From the NCBI RefSeq assembly GCF_021531595.1, contig NZ_JADYUD010000004.1, positions 1 to 64,000 of the forward strand: DNA of 64,000 bases. Reading direction: 5' to 3'. A program made the position numbers and the translations under genes. Numbering within the stretch: position 1 is the stretch's first letter; each line of letters starts with the position of its first letter. The stretch comes from Fusobacterium perfoetens. GTDB lineage: Bacteria > Fusobacteriota > Fusobacteriia > Fusobacteriales > Fusobacteriaceae. Below are positions 218 to 1,320 of this stretch, piece by piece. The notes below the pieces were generated by a model that saw only the letters and a program-made list of their open reading frames with translations, searched no databases and had not been told where the DNA came from.

Positions 218-246
218 TTGACAAAAGTTAAATAATGAGTTATCAT
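218..246 (+). promoter_or_regulatory. Promoter for the AbiF-type RNA and gene
   Basis: TTGACA (218-223), a 17-nt spacer and TATCAT (241-246) form a near-consensus sigma-70 promoter. The -10 lies inside a perfect inverted repeat, TATCATAT-AA-ATATGATA (241-258), which could be an operator. Transcription would begin near 253, just before the RNA structure at 261-306. Confidence 0.65.
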
Positions 247-260
247 ATAAATATGATATA

Positions 261-315
261 GACTTTCTCACACCTCTGACTTTGTCATGTGGCCCATGAG
301 GGAGTCGCTTTTTTT
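261..315 (+). ncRNA. Candidate AbiF-associated structured RNA
   Basis: A 10-bp stem pairs GACTTTCTCA (261-270) with TGAGGGAGTC (297-306), using two G-U pairs. Inside it CAC/GTG and TGAC-TTT-GTCA (277-287) form an apical stem, leaving short internal loops including GGCCCA. A T7 tract (309-315) follows at once, as at an intrinsic terminator, and the AbiF-like gene's ribosome binding site comes right after. A conserved RNA class named abiF has been reported upstream of such genes, from my recollection. Whether this copy matches that covariance model could not be tested here. Confidence 0.55.
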
Positions 316-330
316 ATAAGGAGAAAATTT

Positions 331-1239
331 ATGCATGTTGTAGATGATACTTTTATAAAATTTATTAGTTCTCAGTTAAAACAGCCAACTACATTTAAAG
401 AGCAGATAGATAAACTTAAGAAGAGAAATTTAATCATAGAAGATGAAGATTTTGCAGAAGAAGTTTTAAAAAAGATGAATTATTACTATGTTACAGGTTA
501 TCTTCATGATTTTAAAAATTCAGAGACAGATTGCTATAATGAAGGTTTAACTTTTAATCAGATTTATAAAATAATTAAATTTGATATGAGATTGAGAAGC
601 ATTTTTATATATGCTATGGAGATGATAGAAAGAAGTTTAAAAACTTCTGTAGCATACCATTTTTCACATAATTATCCAGAAGGGAATATTTCCTATTTAT
701 TTAACAGAGATTTTCCAGATAAATTAAAACATGCAAAATTTATAGAATATATTAATAAGAATATAGAAAATAATGAAGATTTGCCTTTTATTCAACATCA
801 TAAACAGCACTATCAAGGATATTATCCAATTTGGGTAGCAGTAGAAGTGTTCACTTTAGGAAATTTAGAAAATTTTTATTCTTTATTAAATACTCCTGTG
901 CAAAAAAAGATAGCCAAAGAATATGACTGCAGTAAAATGCAGATGGAAAACTGGATAGAAGCTATGAGAAGATTTAGAAATATGTTAGCACATGATACAA
1001 GATTATATAATTCTAAAGTAATATTTACTCCTATTAAGAAAAAGGAATGTAATATAACTACTAATAAAATATTTGATTATGTGTTAGTTATGAAATTTTT
1101 AATGTTAGATAAAGAAGAATGGAATGATAAAGTGATACCAGATATTAAAAAGGTTTTTGAAGAATTTAAAGAAAATGTAGATATTGGATGTATAGGTTTT
1201 CCTAAAAATTGGGAAGAAATACTAAAAAATAGGTTATAA
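331..1239 (+). CDS. Abi_2 (AbiF/AbiD-like) HEPN-domain protein
   Basis: This is a 302-residue protein of the Abi_2 family, abortive-infection-type phage-defence proteins that carry a HEPN RNase fold. The HEPN R-x4-H signature is visible as RNMLAH at residues 216-221. The family's central block is present as YPIWVAVEVFTLGNLENFY (about 165-183), and an E-R-S-L-K segment near 100 sits in the first helical region. The start at 331 is chosen because AAGGAG lies 7 nt upstream; an upstream in-frame start at 289 would run through the RNA hairpin. The gene stands alone with its own promoter, a structured RNA before it and a terminator after it. By analogy with reported AbiF loci the RNA may act as antitoxin; that is inference. 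Confidence 0.85.
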   Translation: MHVVDDTFIKFISSQLKQPTTFKEQIDKLKKRNLIIEDEDFAEEVLKKMNYYYVTGYLHDFKNSETDCYNEGLTFNQIYKIIKFDMRLRSIFIYAMEMIERSLKTSVAYHFSHNYPEGNISYLFNRDFPDKLKHAKFIEYINKNIENNEDLPFIQHHKQHYQGYYPIWVAVEVFTLGNLENFYSLLNTPVQKKIAKEYDCSKMQMENWIEAMRRFRNMLAHDTRLYNSKVIFTPIKKKECNITTNKIFDYVLVMKFLMLDKEEWNDKVIPDIKKVFEEFKENVDIGCIGFPKNWEEILKNRL

Positions 1240-1270
1240 TCAAATATTAAAATCATAGTATGTATTGCAT

Positions 1271-1320
1271 AAAGAGATAGGCTGTTACAATCAGATTATC
1301 TCTTTTATTTTTTGTATTTT
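1271..1320 (+). terminator. Terminator after the AbiF-like gene
   Basis: AAAGAGATA (1271-1279) pairs with TATCTCTTT (1297-1305), followed by a T-rich tract. The loop contains GGCTGTTACAA, close to the GGCTGTTGCAA end of the palindromic element at 36064, so this may be a decayed relative of that family. Confidence 0.65.

Follow-up and report, generated by a model that had tools for sequence, protein, structure and literature searches.

An AbiF-type HEPN protein with an upstream abiF-type RNA in Fusobacterium perfoetens, and stand-alone copies of such an RNA in prophages of the same genome

In the window analysed here, a stretch of 64,000 nt of the genome of Fusobacterium perfoetens, positions 218–1322 form a single transcription unit consisting of a promoter, a folded RNA, a T7 tract, a Shine-Dalgarno sequence, an open reading frame and a 3' hairpin. 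The best reading of this locus, by analogy with studied homologues, is that of a type III-like toxin-antitoxin system. We consider it highly probable that it encodes an AbiF toxin-antitoxin (abortive-infection) system that resides in the chromosome and spreads horizontally, its HEPN ribonuclease being neutralised by the RNA. The more interesting result was obtained outside this locus. Copies of the putative antitoxin RNA are present in two prophages of the same genome that have no Abi_2 gene, and this points to a use of the copies by phages to switch AbiF defence off.

All features of the unit are located on the plus strand. A sigma70/A-type promoter (218–246) is formed by TTGACA at 218–223 and TATCAT at 241–246 with a spacer of 17 nt and agrees with the consensus at 11 of 12 positions. 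This is the top-scoring promoter site of the region; the mere number of promoter-like sites showed no excess above chance (12 vs. 10.8 in shuffled sequences). The three orthologous loci L003, L005 and L006 possess a TTGACA/TTGACT-17-TATAAT-like promoter with equal spacing ahead of the RNA. The near-consensus promoter noted in a preliminary description of this DNA was corroborated. The same applies to three further elements that had been named there, namely the T7 tract behind the RNA, the Abi_2 protein with its HEPN motif, and the terminator behind the gene. The 5' leader TGATATA (254–260) abuts the outer stem of the abiF-type RNA (261–306) and is identical in L003, L005 and both prophage RNAs described below. 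The RNA ends 24 nt before the ATG of abiF on the same strand. Judged by sequence, the T7 tract at 309–315 is the predicted attenuator or terminator of a short RNA, and a T tract likewise follows the RNA in homologues. The stem of this predicted attenuator is imperfect (9–10 bp) and its T tract is short; a terminator scanner did not flag the hairpin at 261–306, since the loop there departs from the simple type of 3–8 nt. The Shine-Dalgarno sequence AAGGAG (318–323) is followed by the abiF gene (331–1239), encoding 302 aa. A mechanical list of open reading frames starts this frame at a GTG at 289, within the RNA. We took the ATG at 331 as the start, since a ribosome-binding site is present and the orthologues agree. 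The likely transcription terminator is a 3' hairpin whose tail is rich in T (1271–1322; folding z −2.4). The order of promoter, RNA, terminator and toxin, as in type III toxin-antitoxin systems, is kept in the orthologues.

The window protein is an AbiF/AbiD family HEPN protein. It matched PF07751 (Abi_2) with an E-value of 7.1e-48 (163.8 bits vs. a gathering score of 25.6) and the AbiD model of PADLOC with an E-value of 8.3e-84 (279.6 bits), and its sole relative by sequence in the PDB is PbAbiF (8VZ6, E 5.8e-22). An AlphaFold model built from six sequences (pLDDT 86.7, pTM 0.82) had a single significant match in the PDB, again to 8VZ6, the PbAbiF dimer bound to ncRNA (TM 0.83, E 2.2e-12). 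The catalytic motif RNMLAH (residues 216–221, R216 to H221; positions 976–993) aligns with RNSCCH of PbAbiF and RNQCAH of C. difficile AbiF, and its R, N, A and H residues are invariant across the alignment. The chain of 302 aa has one R-x4-H and lacks the second HEPN motif expected of Cas13. A 16-member protein alignment contained no stretch conserved enough for use as a search pattern, and protein-pattern scans of genome contigs and of viral contigs found no relatives.

The RNA is composed of an outer stem of 9 bp (261–269/298–306), the linker A270, an inner stem of 3 bp (271–273/289–291), a CUCU sequence (274–277), an extra apical hairpin of 3–4 bp (278–280/284–286) and a 6-nt 3' bulge, GCCCAU (292–297). 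The folded RNA of the preliminary description was recovered at its place, but the two-stem layout given there has to be replaced by an outer, an inner and an apical helix. The folding energy of 261–306 is −17.1 kcal/mol (z −2.4 to −2.7), and the interior pairing obtained with RNAfold departs from that supported by covariation. The apical mini-hairpin, which breaks the family consensus loop CUCUnAACnAU, is found in the window RNA, in its three orthologues from Fusobacteriota and in a single faecal phage. Its arms are GAC and GUC around UUU in the window, GAC/GUU in L003, GAC/GUC in L005, AAC/GUU in L006 and CAC/GUG in L038, the contig of the faecal phage, with a first pair that varies between G-C, G-U, A-U and C-G. 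L005 has two U-U mismatches within its outer stem. The RNA varies in its outer stem and at the tip of its loop, while the leader, the inner stem, CUCU/AU and the bulge are kept. Tandem antitoxin repeats as in ToxI are absent; the leader holds one copy of the RNA, and most abiF homologues likewise have a single copy. A DNA pattern for the extra hairpin gave 8 matches in viral contigs, 0 of them upstream of Abi_2, and these were rejected as chance occurrences in coding DNA.

Whether this RNA is recognised by a covariance model depended on the model. The library model for abiF RNA, Rfam RF03085, did not match the window at its gathering cut-off or at E≤10, and permissive Rfam matches in the window, to microRNA and snoRNA families, were rejected as chance. 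In a phylum-wide search, RF03085 scored well in only one genome (G063), still under the cut-off. The scan itself works, since the same Rfam library detected abiF RNA ahead of the Abi_2 gene of Bacillota homologues. The upstream regions of homologues share a common plan of outer stem, 1-base linker, 3-bp inner stem, loop and a bulge of 5–7 nt, usually followed by T-rich sequence. When the window was scored for this architecture, the RNA outscored all other tiles (1304 in total, covering both strands), with a score of 40 vs. at most 30 in shuffled sequences (0 of 400 shuffles reached 40). A second covariance model, R1, was built from 21 abiF-type RNAs, among which neither the window RNA nor those of its three close orthologues were included. 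In the 64-kb window, R1 matched exactly 261–306 as its sole match (E 6.4e-5), and it found all three left-out orthologues (E 8.6e-5 to 0.003), these E-values being rough with a shortened calibration. With 23.7 bits, the window RNA scores near the lower end of the family's range. Within the family, 9 of 10 pairs showed changes on both sides (0/500 shuffles), and 91% of the cells pair vs. 75% in shuffles, dropping to 27–45% in slid structures. Adding the window clade left the covariation result unchanged, and outer and inner stems both covary.

The check suggested in the preliminary description had a divided outcome: the library abiF model gave no match, but the comparison of homologues yielded the compensatory changes that had been looked for, and RNA and protein were found to be conserved as a pair. 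The earlier assignment of an AbiF-type protein with an abiF-type RNA is upheld by the leave-out model, covariation, phylogeny and structure. On these sequence comparisons, the window RNA is an abiF-type RNA that the curated Rfam model misses. It resembles RF03085 in its outer stem, 1-nt linker, 3-bp inner stem, CUCU loop AU and 6-nt bulge upstream of Abi_2; in contrast to RF03085, with a loop of 11 nt, its loop of 15 nt includes the extra 3-bp hairpin, and its inner stem is CAC/GUG. The last two features most likely explain the miss best. As the Rfam model misses the window clade, AbiF RNAs are probably under-counted.

Close orthologues of the protein occur in another genome of the genus (G006, 82% protein identity) and in two genomes of another genus in the family (77% and 70%), and RNA and gene are found together in 3 of 3. 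Within the genus, 2 of 7 genomes have the gene, each at a site of its own, and the pnp-flanking site is taken by other genes in all 6 other genus genomes. With the contig starting at window base 1, the other flank is out of view. In G006, the orthologue adjoins a restriction-type R protein (ResIII, HSDR_N, DUF4145). Taking the patchy occupancy of the pnp site together with this neighbour, the distribution of the locus is, as far as gene content indicates, that of a defence gene that moves between genomes. When the R1-type RNA was mapped onto a tree of 36 Abi_2 proteins, 3 changes were needed vs. 12 with shuffled labels (0/500). Farther Abi_2 clades (L004, L010, L012, L014–L032) bear hairpins of other kinds ahead of the gene, to which R1 gives no match, and it is therefore false for the family as a whole that Abi_2 implies this RNA. 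The upstream hairpins of L004, L010, L012, L014, L019, L022, L026–L028, L030 and L032 are possibly further classes of antitoxin RNA. At another locus (L188 1500–1800; G059:C1:935622), an abiF-type RNA is kept before an internally deleted Abi_2 gene.

The AbiF-RCd22 system of C. difficile phi027/phiC2 is similar to the window locus in its Abi_2 protein (37% identity), its HEPN R-x4-H and its order of promoter, abiF-type RNA, terminator and toxin on one strand (PMC12373285). RCd22 is transcribed from a SigA promoter, and most of its transcripts stop at a terminator ahead of abiF, with readthrough; the RNA lowers abiF expression in cis and neutralises AbiF in trans by direct binding, for which the stems but not their exact sequence are needed, and the R and H of the HEPN motif are required for toxicity of AbiF (PMC12373285). 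Phage defence itself was not demonstrated for this homologue (PMC12373285). RCd22 contains two abiF motifs and a separate terminator hairpin, whereas the window has one motif directly before the T tract and the extra apical hairpin; likewise, the C. difficile gene belongs to a prophage lysis module, whereas the window locus is chromosomal and adjoins pnp. PbAbiF with its RNA, AbiFr, agrees with the window locus in fold, catalytic motif and, according to the published description, the bulged RNA, although the proteins are only about 22% identical; PbAbiF is a HEPN dimer with one RNA per monomer and is inhibited via bulge nucleotides (PMC12737573). Lactococcal AbiD, AbiD1 and AbiF belong to the same protein family and are described as having a structured leader upstream (PMC12373285). 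ToxIN, a type III system, also has an RNA antitoxin of an RNase, but its toxin fold is unrelated and ToxI is a tandem-repeat pseudoknot. AbiF and its RNA have been proposed as ancestors of Cas13 and its guide RNA (PMC12373285; PMC12737573), and the link to Cas13 named in the preliminary description is real; in contrast to Cas13 (type VI CRISPR), the window protein carries one HEPN motif per chain instead of two. Given this proposed ancestry, variants of the RNA are informative on which of its parts are constrained.

Since the window has every sequence element of the C. difficile/PbAbiF scheme, we infer an RNA antitoxin with a readthrough-limited toxin. What we propose on antitoxin binding, readthrough, RNA cleavage and phage defence is drawn from the studied homologues. 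The mechanism put forward in the preliminary description, a short RNA that neutralises the RNase and a toxin made by readthrough, corresponds to what was shown for RCd22 and AbiF of C. difficile (PMC12373285) and is proposed for the window locus by homology and layout. One promoter would give rise mainly to a short abiF-type RNA of approximately 50–60 nt ending in the T tract, which would bind the AbiF HEPN ribonuclease dimer and keep it inactive, while occasional readthrough past the T tract would produce the toxin mRNA. Upon infection or shut-off of host transcription, the labile RNA would be depleted, and the freed RNase would cut RNA and stop growth. Phage defence by the window locus would be a further step beyond antitoxin action.

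Three other explanations of the locus were weighed. The RNA might act solely in cis, as a leader or attenuator by which abiF transcription is kept low or a phage signal is sensed, without binding to the protein. Its position between promoter and gene and its T7 tract are consistent with such a role, as are the lactococcal abiD1 leader, which is under cis control by a phage protein, and the cis activity of RCd22 (PMC12373285). However, loop, inner stem and bulge are conserved beyond the needs of a terminator while the outer stem varies freely, RNAs of the same architecture occur alone in phages where there is no abiF to attenuate, and RCd22 and AbiFr both bind and neutralise their proteins (PMC12373285, PMC12737573). 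We therefore regard a purely cis-acting leader as improbable. A role of the locus mainly as an addiction or stability module of a mobile element, and not in phage defence, was rated as unlikely. The patchy occurrence at different sites and homologues found on plasmids and in prophages would fit this role; yet the locus consists of abiF and its RNA only, with no adjoining integrase or plasmid gene seen on a contig that starts at window base 1, and the occurrence of the antitoxin RNA alone in phages is expected if AbiF threatens phages. Finally, protein or RNA might no longer be functional. The RNA is too divergent for Rfam, and broken copies exist in other Fusobacteriota (G062, G084 and G059:C1), but the open reading frame is of full length with an intact catalytic motif, and promoter, Shine-Dalgarno sequence and RNA are kept relative to orthologues at 70–82% identity, making a decayed remnant very improbable.

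Two further matches of R1 were found in the same genome, at C4:154063–154104 on the minus strand (E 5e-8; L195 14063–14104 in local coordinates) and at C17:1365–1406 (E 3e-7; L193 1365–1406), both stronger than the window match. The whole genome contains one Abi_2 gene in total. C17 is a prophage with genes for terminase, a portal/head protein, tail sheath, tape measure and baseplate proteins, and C4 harbours a prophage at 140–160 kb encoding terminase, RecE, RecT, replisome proteins and tail proteins. Among the latter tail genes we also observed a reverse transcriptase (L195 1555–2649; G000:C4:141555–142649, minus strand; phrog_1423, 3.5e-102), which could belong to a diversity-generating retroelement. 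Both orphan RNAs lie inside a noncoding cassette of approximately 390 nt, whose two prophage copies have 80% identity and which holds tRNA-like elements, one of which matched the Rfam tRNA model with 46.9 bits; ARAGORN made no call for the tRNA-like elements beside the orphan RNAs. Beyond the own genome, searches of other Fusobacteriota and of phage records for this cassette returned only short scraps. Both orphans, with an overall identity of 75–77% to the window RNA, have in common with it the leader and stem base TGATATAGAC, the core CACCTCT...ATGTG and the tail GTCGC, and their bulge likewise ends in CAU. They are devoid of the extra hairpin, and their outer stem is different yet internally paired. 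Among the 9 phylum-wide matches of R1 at E≤0.01, only the two prophage orphans do not adjoin an Abi_2 gene or remnant.

Orphan RNAs of this type are also present in phages elsewhere. The exact pattern of the canonical RNA occurred in at least 120 stretches of IMG/VR (L061–L180). Among the matches listed, 106 had enough downstream sequence, and 99 of these were without Abi_2 in the locus. A search of whole records revealed Abi_2 in 0 of 40 orphan IMG/VR records examined, many of which may be fragments, vs. 6 of 6 controls. The outer stem pairs in 79 of 84 distinct orphans among the matches listed, compared to 14.8 when the 3' halves were shuffled. Isolated phages with an orphan RNA comprise 18 Bacillus phage records (SBSphiJ5–7, Grass, phiNIT1 and others), Streptococcus Javan129/132 and Enterococcus phages; examples are SBSphiJ7 (L208 1494–1534), dArtagnan (L209 1490–1532) and Javan132 (L210 1495–1536). 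In SBSphiJ7, the orphan RNA is situated within a tRNA cluster. When phage records were searched for Abi_2 with a threshold as loose as E≤10, no Bacillus phage was among those that matched.

A single cyanophage abiF RNA has been reported earlier (PMC9964418), and a precedent exists in the pseudo-ToxI of phage PhiTE, an RNA shown to mimic the RNA antitoxin of ToxIN (PMC3475682). A literature search, mostly outside subscription journals, found no description of orphan abiF RNAs as anti-AbiF mimics. By analogy, the orphan abiF-type RNAs look like antitoxin mimics. They may also serve as a processing element of tRNA clusters, bind another HEPN protein, or be remnants of lost toxin-antitoxin loci. 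On balance, we think it probable that in the host's prophages, and in phages widely, stand-alone abiF-type RNAs disarm AbiF, often forming an RNA-only counter-defence cassette with genes for tRNAs or tRNA-like RNAs, and that the window AbiF with its extra-hairpin antitoxin is one arm of a contest inside a single genome. The presence of orphans in phages, including well-used Bacillus phages, makes this counter-defence hypothesis for AbiF directly testable.

Next to the abiF unit, pnp is preceded by a hairpin leader of its own (1413–1477; AAGTAGTAAG...CCCTTATTATTTAC). Its match to mir-965 was rejected as that of a simple hairpin. Both arms of this leader are kept in 7 of 7 genus genomes, and it is possibly an element of PNPase autoregulation.
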